64,000 nt of DNA from Luteolibacter pohnpeiensis (GTDB taxonomy: Bacteria > Verrucomicrobiota > Verrucomicrobiia > Verrucomicrobiales > Akkermansiaceae), in contig NZ_JAENIJ010000007.1 of NCBI RefSeq assembly GCF_016595435.1, forward strand, positions 62,001 to 126,000. The letters are read 5' to 3'. Both the position numbers and the translations under genes were made by a program. The notes under the pieces were generated by a model. That model was not told where the DNA came from and did no database searches. It saw only the letters and a program-made list of their open reading frames with translations. Shown here piece by piece: positions 53,869 through 60,606 of this stretch; within the stretch, counting starts at the first letter, position 1, and every line of letters starts with the position of its first letter.

Positions 53869-56800
53869 ATGATTAAAACCCTGGCCTTTCTTTGCCTTAC
53901 CGCGACGCAACTGTTGGCAAATCCGGACCTGTTCAGGGAACGCTTCGCCGACCCGGTAACGCGTGAAGCCTCCTTGTCCATGCTCACGCCAGGCAGTCGT
54001 GATTTCTTTTTCTATCAGGCGCTTCATTTTCAGCTCACTGGAAACCAAAGCGAATTTGCACGAACCATTAAGGACTGGAAAACCGCATCCAGTCGCAAGG
54101 ACAACCCGGTCTCCCAGAAGGGTTTGGGTGATCTGGAAAACCGCCAACTGGTTCTCAACTATACGGATGATCCTGATAAGGCTTTGCCAAAGCTGGTGGA
54201 AAAGCTCGGCCTCAAATTCAACGACACTCCGCCAGAAACGATTTCCGCCGCCCCGGAATCACCGACACAGGTGGATCCTGCATGGATCACCACTTCCTCA
54301 TTTGAAAAAATAGCCTCTACCAAAAATCCAGACAAACCCTATCTAACTTATGTCAAACAGCGGCTCTATCAGGAGTTGGAAAATGCTGCTGATTTCGACG
54401 AAGCCGAGGCACTTTGGTTCGCTCTAAAAATCGATCGCCCTGACCTGCCCGGCTTCATGAAATTGTTAGACCGGTTACTCGCTCTCGAAAGGCCGCCGAT
54501 TTTTCACAATCTCCCCTGCTCCAGCCAACTCTCACATGATCAGCTCAAGCAGTTGGCACAGTCTCATCCCACATTGCTGGCGGATGAGTCATTTACCATC
54601 GCCTACCTGACAAGCATGCGGCCGAACTCCACGGTTGATTTGGAGCGCGATCTCAAAGCGCGCGCTGCCCATCTTCAGGCATGTCTTGAATTTACCAAGT
54701 CGCTACCTCCGGCATTGAACTCGCTGAAGCTGCATGTGCTTTACCATCATCTGCTGTTGCAGGAAGAACTCGGGAACTATCCCAAAGCTGAGTTTCTTGA
54801 CTACCTTGCCATCCCAAGGACCAACCACCCGTTCATTCTTACTGATAAGAACCGGCAGCAAACATCGTCCCCTAATCTAACCAAAGACTACTTGCAGGCC
54901 ACTGGCTGCCATCCAGTTCAAAACGACGAGGAAATGGTGACCCGGCTGCTGCAACATTTCCTGGCTCAATCAAGTGACGCGTCCGACTTCGCCCCATATA
55001 TCGAGTCTTCCCAGTTGAAGCATTTGCAAACAGTTGCGCAACTACTCCATAGCGCCGATCCCGCCGTCTGGGGAGCAGGACTCACGCCCGAAGAACTCGA
55101 TCAACTGAAGAACCGGGTCACCCTCTCTTTCGCCCCACAAACGCCGCAAATTCTCGGTTCGGACGATTCGGTGATACTCCCGTTGAAATTGAAAAACACC
55201 CCTTCGGTGCTGGTGCGAATTTTCGAGATCAACTTGCCGGACTATCTGAAATCCCATCAAAGCCGACCTGATTTGACGATTAACCTCGATGGAATGATTC
55301 CTCACCACGAGCGCCAACTGAAATTTGATCAACCATCCATTCAGCTACACCGCGAGGAACTTGAACTCCCAGAGCTTGCCGGTCCTGGCACGTGGGTCGT
55401 CGAACTGGTCAGCAACGGAGTCTCATCCCGGGCATTGATCCAAAAAGGCTCCATCACCCCTTTGTTAGATCGAACGGCTGAGTCTCAGAGCATTCGAATT
55501 TATAACGAAAAAAACGAGCCTATCATGGATGGTTTGCTCGATCTCGGGAGTGAAAAAATCCAAGCAGATGAAGCAGGCGTGATCGTTATTCCTGACAGTC
55601 TGCAGCAAGCAGTCGATCAAGGGACTTTGATAGCAGGCAAACTCGCCGTTCCGATCAAGCTGGGCGATCGTACGGATCAAGTGGCGCTGAATATGGGAAT
55701 CCATCTGGAGCGTGAACAGCTGATCGCAGAACGGCAAGCTGAGCTTCTTCTACGCCTCCAACTAACCAACCATGGCATTGAAATTCCTCTGACTCGACTG
55801 AGCCAGGTTTCCGTAACGCTAAACGCCACTTTGTTAGGAAATACGGTGACACAAAGAGTCATCGGCAAGGACCTGAAACTTGCACCCAGCCTATCAATCC
55901 CGTTCCACGTCCCGGCAAATCTCCAGTCACTTTCAATCACGCTCCAAGGTTCATATCAGTCTCCACTCGGCGGCGAACCAGTTGTCCTGAGCTCCACCAG
56001 CAGCTATGAACTGAACCATTCACTGCTGAACGATCAAATCGCCACGGTTTTCTTTGCTCCAACTACCTCGGGGCATCAATTGGAAATCCGTGGTCGCAAT
56101 GGCGAGCCGATCCCATCCCGTTCATTCAACCTCACCCTGTTCCACAGTGGCTATTCTCAGCCATTCGAAGCAGCATGCCGAACTGATGAAAATGGCATTT
56201 TCATGCTGGGCGACTTGGATCAGATCGTCGAAGCCCGCGTGTCAGGCACAGATCTCGCGGAAACCCACTACGATCCATCTCGTAGAATCACCGATGTTCC
56301 TGATTCCATCGATTGCATCTCCGGTGAGACAATCCGGCTCCCGAACATTCTGGGACTAACAAAAACCAACCGGCTCCAACTTTCATTGATCGAGACCACC
56401 TCGTCCGATTCTGCATTGAGCGATCATTTTGACCAAATCTCAATCGACGCAAATTTCCTCGTCATCACCGGCTTGAAAGCAGGCAGCTATCGCCTCCTCC
56501 AGAAAGATTCAAAGACAGCACTTCACGTTTACGATGGAGTGCGCCGCGATGATCACATTTTCACCAAAAATTCAATCGTTCCCGTAGGAAATTCCGCCGT
56601 TCCAATGGTGGAGAGTGAAACCCGGGATGGCGATGACCTCTTGATTCGAATCAATAATAACACCGCCACCACCCGCGTCACGGTGGTTGGCCACCGGTAT
56701 GCATTTCCAGAATGGTTTCCAGGCCGCGGAGCCATCCCATTCGAGGCAGCAAATCGCACCGAAACCAAGGTCGGCTATTGGCCTTGTGGCTATCGAACCG

Positions 56801-59800
56801 GCGTAAAGGTCGGTGATGAAATGCGCTACATTCTGGAACGGCGCGGTGCTACAAAATTTCCAGGTTCCATGCTACCTCGGCCCGGCACTCTGCTACATCG
56901 CTGGCCTGATGAAGAAGCCGTGCAGGATGAACAGGATGTCCTACTCGGTGGCGGTGGCCGCTCCTTATCCAGGGCATCGCAAGAGCCCTACAGCCCGCCA
57001 CCATTGCCAATGGTGGATTCAAGCGATGGCACTACAATGGGCAGCTCTTCAGAAAATTGCGACTTCCTCGCCCACCCGGCTGTCGTTCGGTTCGACCTCA
57101 CACCGGATGAAAACGGAATCATCCGTCTACCGATCGCCGATTTTAAAAACTCACAGTTCATTGAGATCATCGCAGCCGACTCCTCCGGGAGTGACCGATT
57201 GAAGGTGTCGCTTGAGCCATCAGCTCCAGAGTTACGCGACCAGCGCTTGATCCGGGGGCTGGATCCCGCGACTCCATACGTGGCCCGCCACAGCGCCGCT
57301 GCACTGTTCAAAGATTCCGAGGCAACCATCGAAAACCTGCTCGATGCGGATTGGCGAGCCTTCAACACACTGGAAGATGCCCATCAATTTCTGATCGGCA
57401 TGACGGCAGATCGAAATCTAGCAGAATTCCGATTTCTAACAAAATGGCCGGACCTCACCGAAGAAGACAAATTGGAACTCCTGGCCAAATATCAATGCCA
57501 CGAGCTGGATTTATTCATCGCCCGCAAGGACAAACCGTTCTTCGAAAGATACCTCAAACCGATGCTGGCGGCAAAACCGCAGCCGGAGTTCATCGACGAT
57601 CTCTTACTCCAGCGTGATCTAAGTCCTTACCTTCGGCCCTACGCTTGGAATCGACTCAATGCAGCGGAAAAGGCACTCCTTGCCCAAGCATTGCCGGAAG
57701 CCAGGGATCGCATCGCGCGTGAACTGAAACTCCGCTGGGATGCGGAAGCACCACCTCCCGAACAACAGACCCAGCTATTTACTCAAACCTTGCAGGGAAC
57801 GGACCTCGCCGTGATCGATACGCTAGGCTTGGCCAAAAACGACGATGTGGACCCATTTGGATTGGCCGAGTATGATTCGTATTCAGCAGGCTCTCCCTTG
57901 CTCACCGACAAGCTTCGTCGCATCATCATCCCGAGGATTGATTTTAATGATATCACCTTTCGAGAAGCTGTCGATTTTCTCCGGCTGCGCGCTGTGGAGC
58001 TGGATAGCACCGAGCTCGATCCGTCGAAAAAAGGAATAAACATGATGATCGATCAAGGCCAAGCCTCCGCGACGGATTTCGCTCAGAGAAGGATCTCTGA
58101 CTTACACCTTAGTAATATCCCGCTAGAGACTGCATTGAATTACATCTGTGAGGCGACTGGAATGCGTTACAAAACGGACGACTTTTCCGTAAAGCTCGTT
58201 CCACAAACTGGTGCAGGAAAAGACATGGCCAGTCGCACCTTCACTGTATCTCCTGATTTTGCAAATAAGCTCTATGGTCCCTCTTTGCAAGCTGGCGACC
58301 CATTCGCAGGTTTATCCTTGGATCCAGCATTATCCGCGCGTCCCTCAATTACCGAGCTTCTGGAGGGAAGTGGCGTCCGTTTCCCAGAGGGTTCAAAAGC
58401 CACTCTCACTCCTAATGGGAAGCTGATCGTCATCGCGCCACCATCCGAGCTCGAAAAAATAGATCGATTAACTGAAAGTTATGGTGAGGCCGACATAGAA
58501 GGATACTTTTACGCACCATCTGAAGCTGATGATCCATTCGGGTGGCAGCCCCAGATCACCTATTCAAAGACCCAAATCTGGCGGGAATCAAACTACTACA
58601 GACATCGTGGTAACACAGGAGAGACATTCATTCCTCTCAACCAATTCTGGGTGGACCTGGCTGCCTGGGATGGAAATGGTCCATTTCTCTCACCAAATTT
58701 CAACGCCTGCCATACGAATGGCAACGAGGCATTGATGTGTCTGGCCCTGCTTGATCTTCCATTCAAGGCCGAGCAACCGGAAATCGTGAGCGAAAACAAT
58801 ACGATGCGTGTGAAAGCCCGCGCCCCGATGGTTCTTTTCTATAAAGACACGGTCGCTGTCCCACAAGCCAATGAGGATTCACCGCTCCTGACTCGTCAAT
58901 CATTCTACCCCCTGCACCAACCCACCCGACGAGTTGACGGACAGGAAATCAGCAACGATGTCTCCGGCGAATTCAAAACCGGAACGGCTTATGGGATCTC
59001 ACTTGTGGTGACCAACACCTCTGGTTTCGGCCATCAGATTGATCTTCTTGCACAAATTCCTACCGGTGCCATCCCGCTGGCAGGTCAACCTGAGACTCTA
59101 TCGATCTCGAAAAAAATCCAACCTTTCGGGGTCATCAATCTTAATCTCGCCTTCTATTTTCCAAGCGAAGGGACTTATTCCATTTGCCCATTCGGCATTT
59201 CGGAAAATGGCAAACTCCTGGCTCGCACCTCTCCGCAACAGCTCGTGGTCAATGGAAATCCAAGTGACCTTGCCACCAATGATTGGCGTGGCATCGCTGC
59301 AAATGGAAGTCCGGAACAAGTCTACTCCTATTTGCGAAACGCCCCCCTGGAAGGATTGGAAATCGACCGCATTTTGTGGCGTCTGAAGGACCAAAAGGTT
59401 TACCAACAAATCGCCTCGATTCTGCGGGATCGCATGCTGTTTTCATCCAATGTTTTCGCTTACGCCTTCCTGCATCGCGACGAGCAGGGAATTTCAGATT
59501 ATCTGGAAAACTCAGACCTCATCCATCATCTCGGTGATTGGTTGGACTCGTCACTGCTGCAGCTCCGGCCGCAGATCCATCTCAATTGGTCGCAACTGGA
59601 ATTTGATCCGGTGGTGAATCCTCGCTCCCACTTTTTTAGCGACAATCCGCGCCTGACCCATGATCTAGCCCTCAAATACTATCGAGATTTTCTCGATCAA
59701 CTGGCCTGGAAACCCGAGCTGAGCGCCGAGGATCGGCTCAATCTTTGCGCATTGCTTTTCCTGCAGGATCGCATTGGGGAAGCAATCGCCGAATTCGATC

Positions 59801-60606
59801 AGATCGACCCGAGTGGCCTGGGTTCCCGGCTTCAATATGATTTCCTGAAAGCAACCTCTTTGTTCTATCGAGGCCAACCTGGGGAAGCTTCAGCAATTGC
59901 AAAAACCTATTTATCCAGCCTTCCGCCAGGCATCTGGAAGGACCGCTATCAAGCAGTTGTCAATCAAACTACGGAAATCACCGTACTTTTTCAGAACTCC
60001 GAACTCCCGGGAGAAACTGAGGAAGAGCCTGCACAGGAACTGCAACTCACATCCGATACCAGCGGAGGGTTGCTGCTCAAGCACCACGGCTTTAGCAAAG
60101 CGACCCTGGATTACTTCCAAGTCGATCTCGAAGTGCTATTCTCTGCCAATCCATTCCTTGAGGGGGACCGTGATTCGAATGAACCACCGATGATTCCAAA
60201 CCACACGGCGGAGATCGCATTAACGGATGCAGAATCAACCACCGCTATCGAAGTCCCGGAAAACCTGGCTTCAGGAAATCTCCTGGTCGTGGCTAAATCC
60301 GGCGATGCGACTTCCATGCAGATTCTGGACGACAGTCCTGTGATCGTCCGCAACCAGGCGGCTGCCCGGACCTTGCAATTGTTCGACCGTGAAACCACAA
60401 AGCCGGTATCCAAAGTCTACGTCAAGGTTTACGCCGAAGATCAATCGGGCGAGATCAGTTTCCACAAGGACGGCTACACCGACCTGCGCGGAAAATTCGA
60501 CTACCTGACCCACACCGGCAAAGACATATCTACGATCCGAAGGGTGGCGGTTCTGATAATTTCCCCAGAACATCACATCGCCCGAACCATGATATTCGAG
60601 CGATAG
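53869..60606 (+). CDS. Giant secreted alpha-2-macroglobulin-like protein with secretin-type insert
   Basis: The 2245-residue product has a signal peptide (MIKTLAFLCLTATQLLA/NP). Residues 420-760 read like macroglobulin-type beta domains (GTWVVELVSNG near residue 506, then SRALIQKG, typical of large bacterial relatives). Residues 1210-1275 (CHELDLFIARKDKPFFE) continue that family. Between about residues 1355 and 1535 lies a different module: DFNDITFREAVDFLRL, then SNIPLETALNYICEATG and FPEGSKATLTPNGKLIVIA, the pattern of secretin/TonB short N-domains. A Gly/Ser/Pro-rich stretch lies near 1024-1062. I see no GCGEQ thioester, so covalent trapping is unlikely. It may bind or restrain periplasmic or extracellular proteins. 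It converges with the ATP-grasp gene, 3 bp between stops. Confidence 0.8.
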   Translation: MIKTLAFLCLTATQLLANPDLFRERFADPVTREASLSMLTPGSRDFFFYQALHFQLTGNQSEFARTIKDWKTASSRKDNPVSQKGLGDLENRQLVLNYTDDPDKALPKLVEKLGLKFNDTPPETISAAPESPTQVDPAWITTSSFEKIASTKNPDKPYLTYVKQRLYQELENAADFDEAEALWFALKIDRPDLPGFMKLLDRLLALERPPIFHNLPCSSQLSHDQLKQLAQSHPTLLADESFTIAYLTSMRPNSTVDLERDLKARAAHLQACLEFTKSLPPALNSLKLHVLYHHLLLQEELGNYPKAEFLDYLAIPRTNHPFILTDKNRQQTSSPNLTKDYLQATGCHPVQNDEEMVTRLLQHFLAQSSDASDFAPYIESSQLKHLQTVAQLLHSADPAVWGAGLTPEELDQLKNRVTLSFAPQTPQILGSDDSVILPLKLKNTPSVLVRIFEINLPDYLKSHQSRPDLTINLDGMIPHHERQLKFDQPSIQLHREELELPELAGPGTWVVELVSNGVSSRALIQKGSITPLLDRTAESQSIRIYNEKNEPIMDGLLDLGSEKIQADEAGVIVIPDSLQQAVDQGTLIAGKLAVPIKLGDRTDQVALNMGIHLEREQLIAERQAELLLRLQLTNHGIEIPLTRLSQVSVTLNATLLGNTVTQRVIGKDLKLAPSLSIPFHVPANLQSLSITLQGSYQSPLGGEPVVLSSTSSYELNHSLLNDQIATVFFAPTTSGHQLEIRGRNGEPIPSRSFNLTLFHSGYSQPFEAACRTDENGIFMLGDLDQIVEARVSGTDLAETHYDPSRRITDVPDSIDCISGETIRLPNILGLTKTNRLQLSLIETTSSDSALSDHFDQISIDANFLVITGLKAGSYRLLQKDSKTALHVYDGVRRDDHIFTKNSIVPVGNSAVPMVESETRDGDDLLIRINNNTATTRVTVVGHRYAFPEWFPGRGAIPFEAANRTETKVGYWPCGYRTGVKVGDEMRYILERRGATKFPGSMLPRPGTLLHRWPDEEAVQDEQDVLLGGGGRSLSRASQEPYSPPPLPMVDSSDGTTMGSSSENCDFLAHPAVVRFDLTPDENGIIRLPIADFKNSQFIEIIAADSSGSDRLKVSLEPSAPELRDQRLIRGLDPATPYVARHSAAALFKDSEATIENLLDADWRAFNTLEDAHQFLIGMTADRNLAEFRFLTKWPDLTEEDKLELLAKYQCHELDLFIARKDKPFFERYLKPMLAAKPQPEFIDDLLLQRDLSPYLRPYAWNRLNAAEKALLAQALPEARDRIARELKLRWDAEAPPPEQQTQLFTQTLQGTDLAVIDTLGLAKNDDVDPFGLAEYDSYSAGSPLLTDKLRRIIIPRIDFNDITFREAVDFLRLRAVELDSTELDPSKKGINMMIDQGQASATDFAQRRISDLHLSNIPLETALNYICEATGMRYKTDDFSVKLVPQTGAGKDMASRTFTVSPDFANKLYGPSLQAGDPFAGLSLDPALSARPSITELLEGSGVRFPEGSKATLTPNGKLIVIAPPSELEKIDRLTESYGEADIEGYFYAPSEADDPFGWQPQITYSKTQIWRESNYYRHRGNTGETFIPLNQFWVDLAAWDGNGPFLSPNFNACHTNGNEALMCLALLDLPFKAEQPEIVSENNTMRVKARAPMVLFYKDTVAVPQANEDSPLLTRQSFYPLHQPTRRVDGQEISNDVSGEFKTGTAYGISLVVTNTSGFGHQIDLLAQIPTGAIPLAGQPETLSISKKIQPFGVINLNLAFYFPSEGTYSICPFGISENGKLLARTSPQQLVVNGNPSDLATNDWRGIAANGSPEQVYSYLRNAPLEGLEIDRILWRLKDQKVYQQIASILRDRMLFSSNVFAYAFLHRDEQGISDYLENSDLIHHLGDWLDSSLLQLRPQIHLNWSQLEFDPVVNPRSHFFSDNPRLTHDLALKYYRDFLDQLAWKPELSAEDRLNLCALLFLQDRIGEAIAEFDQIDPSGLGSRLQYDFLKATSLFYRGQPGEASAIAKTYLSSLPPGIWKDRYQAVVNQTTEITVLFQNSELPGETEEEPAQELQLTSDTSGGLLLKHHGFSKATLDYFQVDLEVLFSANPFLEGDRDSNEPPMIPNHTAEIALTDAESTTAIEVPENLASGNLLVVAKSGDATSMQILDDSPVIVRNQAAARTLQLFDRETTKPVSKVYVKVYAEDQSGEISFHKDGYTDLRGKFDYLTHTGKDISTIRRVAVLIISPEHHIARTMIFER

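Follow-up and report, generated by a model that had tools for sequence, protein, structure and literature searches.

CAGE proteins, of which Tetrahymena CAGE1 and Dictyostelium AbpF are known, are about 2,200 amino acids (aa) long and form homotetrameric hollow shells of ~1 MDa (McCafferty et al. 2025, preprint, PMC12485934). They range widely, from bacteria to protists, are abundant in Planctomycetota and Verrucomicrobiota, carry signal peptides in bacteria, contain Ig-like domains resembling those of macroglobulin and no Pfam domains, and have no known function, a protease trap being listed among the guesses (PMC12485934). In secretins, according to PMC3441751 and PMC3169554, the N0 domain is a docking site for inner-membrane partners, PilP docking on PilQ and GspC on GspD. 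The window analyzed here, 64,000 nucleotides of Luteolibacter pohnpeiensis (contig NZ_JAENIJ010000007.1, positions 62,001 to 126,000), contains at positions 53869-60606 (+) an open reading frame of 2245 aa with an ATG start and no internal stop. Its product is very probably a bacterial member of the CAGE family, as judged by modeled architecture rather than by alignment to a CAGE sequence, and it has built into it the N-domain pair of a type IV pilus secretin, a pair that follows the secretin of the same genome from one species to the next.

The inserted secretin module

Residues 1341-1542 are the STN (N0) and N1 pair of an Amuc_1098-type pilus secretin (PilQ). Residues 1340-1538 match positions 248-455 of the 805 in NF042912 (Amuc_1098_fam, a type IV pilus outer membrane protein) with E = 1.7e-53 and 181.8 bits, the sole NCBIfam match in the protein. 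Because this match is to the N-domains alone and its score lies below the whole-protein cut-off of 750, the protein holds a piece of a pilus secretin and is not itself a secretin; the match is confined to these residues, and neither the secretin barrel nor the TPR part is present. In an AlphaFold2 model of residues 1290-2245 (mean predicted local distance difference test score, pLDDT, 79.6; predicted template-modeling score, pTM, 0.46), the insert forms two alpha/beta domains at model residues 52-253 (protein residues ~1341-1455 and ~1456-1542), with pLDDT of 76-97 in all 10-residue blocks save two (54 and 45) at model residues 181-200. An initial annotation, made from the sequence alone, had proposed an inserted N-domain pair at residues 1355-1535 of the kind found in secretins and TonB-dependent receptors. 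The pair is borne out by both the NCBIfam match and the model, and its nearest source is a secretin, not a TonB-dependent receptor. The two motifs that had been taken to mark the pair, FREAVDFLRL and PLETALNYICEATG, turned out to be two helices of a single STN domain (~1341-1455), with N1 coming after it.

Single Pfam scans of 48 module sequences (24 inserts and 24 secretins) found STN in 37 and Secretin_N in 19 at E≤1, with best E values of 1.3e-4 and 7.5e-4, matches that are weak one by one; the insert in the window has an STN match of E = 0.023 and 15.0 bits against a cut-off of 28.4. The sole match of a profile of the modules to the PDB was a PilQ-family secretin, 6w6m (E = 0.52). No secretin was among the Foldseek matches listed for the C-terminal model, a list that consisted mostly of complement chains, so that the module was barely probed and this absence does not count against it. 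The real secretin of this genome (873 aa, 1201.7 bits to NF042912) lies on another contig, L031, where it is adjoined by homologues of Amuc_1099, Amuc_1100, Amuc_1101, and Amuc_1102; all five score above their NCBIfam cut-offs and form a complete pilus cluster. The insert shares 53-56% identity with the module of this secretin.

Matching of the insert to the secretin of its own genome

Among 18 genomes of the genus, the secretin of the same genome was the best match for the insert in 16 (out of 18 secretins compared); the addition of six genomes, reached by way of other loci, brought this to 22 of 24, with an own identity of 65.3% as compared to 50.8% when shuffled. The same held in seven of seven hold-out genomes, which belong to other genera of the same family, were chosen after the rule had been seen, and have the module in an open frame of 2,287-2,360 aa among the matches listed. 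Over all 31 genomes the own secretin was best in 29 (66.0% versus 50.3% shuffled; 0 of 100,000 shuffles as high), and both misses were within 1 point, with a sister secretin that shares 96% or 99% identity with the own one among the nearest rivals. Restricted to well-filled columns the count was 28 of 31, and 25 and 22 for the STN and N1 halves, respectively. Before counting we excluded G006, G012, G024, and G047, genomes of the genus whose copies are fragmentary or have no full module, and G256, which has the same contig and near-identical match coordinates and frame lengths as the Haloferula luteola genome G112.

General compositional similarity within a genome was considered as the sole cause of this matching and rejected, because its effect in paralogue controls was too small. 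In 15 genomes, a paralogous secretin of ~830 aa gave 37.9 versus 36.8 (82 of 20,000 shuffles as high) and a second paralogue comparison 39.7 versus 38.2 (2 of 20,000), the own secretin being best in 2 of 15 each time; the own-genome excess is thus 1 to 1.5 points in the controls versus 11 to 16 for the insert. The fraction of informative sites siding with the own secretin was likewise 0.79 for inserts (24 genomes) and 0.53-0.56 for controls (15 genomes, where inserts scored 0.76).

In the 13 genomes with complete data, insert distances correlated at 0.72 with those of the secretin module but at 0.12 with the remainder of the secretin, 0.05 with its TPR part, 0.16 with the insert's own backbone, and 0.27 with Amuc_1099, the highest value for any pilus-operon partner, none of which tracks the insert. 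In these genomes the insert thus follows the secretin module of its own genome and neither the rest of the secretin nor its own backbone. In 24 genomes the partial correlation between insert and secretin module was 0.73; these distances include secretin fragments (G026, G105, G114, and G116), which weakens the rest-of-secretin figure.

In trees of 43 and 63 modules the inserts are scattered, most of them next to the pilus secretin from the same genome, and their branches exceed those of the secretins in length. Forcing 24 inserts to be monophyletic costs 501 log-likelihood units (p = 0.0003 in an approximately unbiased test, in which the group was named by host protein with the 43-module tree known beforehand; G114, G115, and G116 sit on long branches). 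The module trees and this test reject a history in which the insert was captured once and then simply inherited.

STN-type units like that of the insert, matched to NF042912, are also found in different host proteins of Verrucomicrobiota. The product of L038:9580-12786 (-) in G009, a genome of the genus, has four tandem STN-N1 modules in 1069 aa with no barrel and passes the cut-offs of both Pfam STN and Secretin_N; L173:5922-7679 (+) and L174:4982-7471 (+) encode M56/BlaR1-type membrane sensors with two or three secretin-type STN units C-terminally. L044:8696-13384 (-), in an order-level relative, encodes 1563 aa with two modules near the C-terminus. The L038 and L044 modules are included in the 43-module tree.

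The host protein and its relatives

The layout of the gene, all on the + strand, is as follows, with the basis of each assignment in brackets.

53869..60606, +, whole gene, probable CAGE-type protein with inserted secretin module, 2245 aa (open reading frame and homologues)
53869..53919, +, signal-peptide-like N-terminus, residues 1 to ~17 (read by eye)
55120..57210, +, tandem beta-sandwich domains with macroglobulin/complement-like fold, residues ~418-1114 (AlphaFold2 model, fold matches)
57370..57792, +, helical block, residues ~1168-1308, fits first part of CAGE domain 11 (model against the domain list of PMC12485934)
57793..57888, +, left linker, residues 1309-1340 (low pLDDT in both models; linker of relatives)
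57889..58233, +, inserted STN (N0-type) domain, residues ~1341-1455, with both motifs of the initial annotation (NCBIfam, Pfam, model)
58234..58494, +, inserted N1 (Secretin_N-type) domain, residues ~1456-1542 (NCBIfam, Pfam, model)
58495..58779, +, right linker and short helices, residues 1543-1637, fits second part of CAGE domain 11 (alignment, model)
58780..59253, +, beta-sandwich domain, residues ~1638-1795, fits CAGE domain 12 (model, fold match)
59284..59529, +, helical domain, residues ~1806-1887, fits CAGE domain 13 (model)
59662..59991, +, helical domain, residues ~1932-2041, fits CAGE domain 14 (model)
60043..60600, +, C-terminal beta domains, residues ~2059-2244, fits CAGE domain 15 (model, fold match)

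The N-terminus resembles a Sec signal peptide by eye, and most of the insert-bearing relatives listed also have hydrophobic starts. A conserved W..SNYY stretch lies in the right linker near residue 1572.

Assignment to the CAGE family rests on several agreements. The length of 2245 aa falls within ~1,900-2,400 aa, and a Pfam scan of the whole protein gave 0 families at E≤10. The published CAGE1 domains are helical at 1-443, beta at 444-1195, helical at 1244-1414 and 1519-1559, beta at 1606-1738, helical at 1751-1833 and 1879-2011, and beta at 2014-2215 (PMC12485934). Our models are beta at 418-1114, helical at 1168-1308, then the insert and short helices near 1592-1628, beta at 1638-1795, helical at 1806-1887 and 1932-2041, and beta at 2059-2244, so that they agree with CAGE in the order and size of domains 3-15, as compared by eye and with the relative placing of domains unsure at pTM values of 0.70 and 0.46. 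By this comparison the insert occupies the loop that separates the first part of CAGE domain 11 from the second. The models also have Ig-like domains with alpha-2-macroglobulin among the best structural matches, and the family appears exported (a signal peptide by eye) and is centered on Planctomycetota and Verrucomicrobiota, the main phyla among 80 kept relatives. Assembly as a tetramer and a periplasmic location would follow the CAGE precedent. PDB sequence searches with profiles A1 and A3 gave no chain at E≤1, in a copy seemingly without the deposited CAGE entries, and a search with the protein itself gave one chance match only (E = 0.55). The text of PMC12485934 mentions neither secretin nor pilus, and in the open-access literature we found no report of a secretin domain in a CAGE or macroglobulin-like protein.

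The initial annotation had read the product as a giant secreted macroglobulin-like protein. The beta-domain fold stands, and Pfam and the thioester motif speak against alpha-2-macroglobulin at the level of sequence, CAGE being the most likely family. The model of residues 396-1335 (mean pLDDT 84.9, pTM 0.70) is a chain of beta-sandwiches followed by helices, and Foldseek put macroglobulin and complement chains on top for this core (E = 1.1e-13) and best for the C-terminal model (E = 8.7e-8). The best VIA-align match of the core was a Salmonella macroglobulin (Z 9.9 over 432 residues, root-mean-square deviation 12.9 Å), and the C-terminal part matched the NIE-MG1 fragment of E. coli macroglobulin (Z 9.7, 179 residues, 4.1 Å). 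Because the TM-scores of the macroglobulin and complement matches are low (0.09-0.23), the backbone and the macroglobulins share a kind of domain only; at the C-terminal beta domain, Ig-like chains with no relation to them reach scores equal to those of complement. In agreement with the initial annotation, the protein has no thioester motif (C[GLAS]EQ), and neither do the 78 core regions and 72 C-terminal regions that were aligned. Among 22 relatives, Pfam macroglobulin domains amounted to two weak matches, an MG4 (E = 0.072) and a bMG3 (E = 0.22). Membership in the alpha-2-macroglobulins was rejected because the protein has no thioester and no Pfam A2M, MG, or TED domain; its modeled backbone resembles macroglobulin only in fold.

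The initial annotation had suggested a search for homologues with and without the insert, and both kinds exist. In a search of 99 related genomes, insert-bearing full-length homologues of ~45% identity were found in the genus, and order-level homologues of ~30% identity match residues 1-1313 and 1567-2236 only. Residues 420-760 and 1210-1275, which had been read as one large family, are indeed rich in family-wide conserved columns. A scan of genome contigs gave at least 559 relatives, and the best 80, which were kept, come from Planctomycetota, Verrucomicrobiota, Lentisphaerota, Riflebacteria, Myxococcota, and one Desulfococcaceae. Insert-less relatives listed have 108 to 232 mostly low-complexity residues at the site of the module, which thus fills a linker that is variable and of low complexity in relatives without it. 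In a tree of 78 cores (by FastTree, with composition warnings raised), the 14 insert-bearing rows form one clade with support of 100; the remaining rows are 62 without insert, one STN-only, and one fragment short of the site. L123 (masked letters) and fragments were excluded from alignments A2 and A3.

The STN-only row is a Prosthecobacter protein of CAGE type, deep in an insert-less clade, with an STN domain at L092:14093-14350 (+) in the same linker; over 86 residues it is 64% identical to an Amuc_1098-family secretin of its own genome, itself cut by a contig end. It is an independent capture, so that the linker has taken up a secretin N-domain at least twice.

Several further genes of this family deserve mention. 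A second, insert-less CAGE-type paralogue (~30% identity) is found beside the insert-bearing one in some genomes of the genus (G019:C259, G028:C865, G026:C107, and G057:C24). CAGE-type genes split across two frames or shortened (L049:7792-13193, L172:6937-10086, L103, and L142) occur in some assemblies and may reflect sequencing error or decay. The CAGE-type genes of L088, L113, L137, and L141, labeled Akkermansia muciniphila, group with those of other Verrucomicrobiota, and the species label may be loose.

Possible readings: docking, copying or decoy

N0-N1 domains of secretins pack into rings. We consider it somewhat probable that the protein is a periplasmic cage subunit docked at the pilus channel, with more certainty in the architecture than in the role. 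It would be a subunit of a CAGE-type hollow periplasmic assembly whose variable linker, in one Verrucomicrobiales clade, holds the STN-N1 pair of the pilus secretin. The module would serve as a docking piece, presenting to the periplasm the same surfaces as the secretin N0-N1 ring, and the cage would be anchored at the channel through contacts of the module with the N-domains of the secretin or with the partner that these bind. Such a cage might, as a guess, hold or guard pilus subunits or the secretin in transit. That a copy stays matched to its own secretin is most simply explained by a need to contact this secretin or the partner that the secretin binds, and the putative tie to a secretion or uptake channel suggested in the initial annotation thereby gains indirect support. 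A cage with an integrated N0-N1 copy that co-evolves with the host secretin, as either docking adaptor or decoy trapping channel attackers, is a possibility we hold more tentatively. If this is right, bacterial CAGE proteins would gain their first concrete partner. A lineage with a matched pilus-pore domain names a partner testable in cultured, non-pathogenic bacteria; an inserted domain that tracks its source protein across genomes is, moreover, an unusual pattern and a measurable one.

A number of observations weigh against docking. All 73 genomes of the genus have some module match, mostly secretins, and the insert-bearing protein is found in a subset only; pilus secretins thus occur in many of these genomes apparently without it, and pili do not need it. 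At 17 insert-bearing loci no neighbor family is common to three or more, and the gene lies away from the pilus cluster. With deep splits included (24 genomes), the insert also correlates with its backbone at 0.62, or 0.39 once the secretin module is accounted for. The remaining points bear on copying without function, in which recombination repeatedly overwrote the insert with the secretin module in a linker that tolerates insertions, and the matching says nothing about binding. The own-genome matching extends evenly over the module, including both the STN and N1 halves and the loops, which argues against selection alone; the insert and the own secretin share gap patterns (0.581 versus 0.481, 0 of 20,000 shuffles as high), and the longer insert branches also fit copying. 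In the sister genomes G219 and G191 the module stands at 0.62 and its flanks at 0.70-0.95, and between G113 and G111 module codon identity drops to 0.41 between flanks of 0.67-0.68, with individual flank windows mostly at 0.53-0.75 (0.46 in a short window directly before the module), as after replacement. Like the shared indels, such a peak of divergence limited to the module is a better fit to DNA replacement than to selection.

No copying is evident at silent sites, however: in the 15 genomes of the control, insert and own secretin use the same codon at a rate of 0.491 where they share the residue, and the paralogue comparisons give 0.483 and 0.494. Nor does any of the genomes hold a recent copy, none of the 31 own pairs exceeding 79% identity, and the module is intact in every complete bearer seen. 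For nine close pairs, in which the secretin modules share 78% identity or more and their silent sites are not saturated, the count of amino acids in favor of the own secretin is 184 to 86, whereas silent codons show no such preference (214 to 217); these pairs share genomes. In five non-overlapping pairs the figures are 62 to 37 and 87 to 97, the former giving p = 0.015 against 0.5 but 0.16 against the control background of 0.555, a weakness that counts against docking as well. We regard copying without function as unlikely; old replacements followed by co-adaptation would fit all of these data. Less likely still is an integrated decoy, a macroglobulin-like trap with the secretin copy as bait for attackers of the pilus channel such as phage or rival-borne factors. 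A decoy would have to track its target, as observed, macroglobulin-like folds occur in traps (the CAGE preprint, PMC12485934, guesses at a protease trap too), the insertion site is an otherwise variable linker, and divergence between genomes is greater in the secretin module than in the barrel half (mean distance 0.402 versus 0.262 in 13 genomes). Amuc_1099 and Amuc_1100 homologues diverge as much (0.480 and 0.525), however, so the module is not unusually fast within its operon, no attacker is known, and neither a thioester nor a bait-type cleavage site was identified, although no test aimed at bait cleavage was made. An ordinary protease inhibitor of the alpha-2-macroglobulin type, into which a domain was inserted by chance, is favored by the Foldseek rankings of core and C-terminal part; with the low TM-scores, the large deviation of the best VIA-align match, the equal scores of Ig-like chains, and the failed Pfam and thioester tests, it is very improbable.

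Docking of a cage subunit remains the reading we favor, and against known systems the protein compares as follows. Like the bacterial alpha-2-macroglobulins of E. coli and Salmonella it has tandem MG-like beta-sandwich domains by fold, but it differs from them in its helical parts and has neither the thioester nor a Pfam macroglobulin domain above chance. With the Amuc_1098 family secretin, PilQ of Akkermansia muciniphila (PMC4960237), it shares the STN-N1 module, without the TPR part or the barrel. The family resembles CAGE in length, in domain order and sizes, in the absence of Pfam domains, in its signal peptide, and in the taxa that carry it. In this protein, unlike CAGE1, a secretin module of ~200 residues occupies the loop equivalent to CAGE1 residues 1414-1519.

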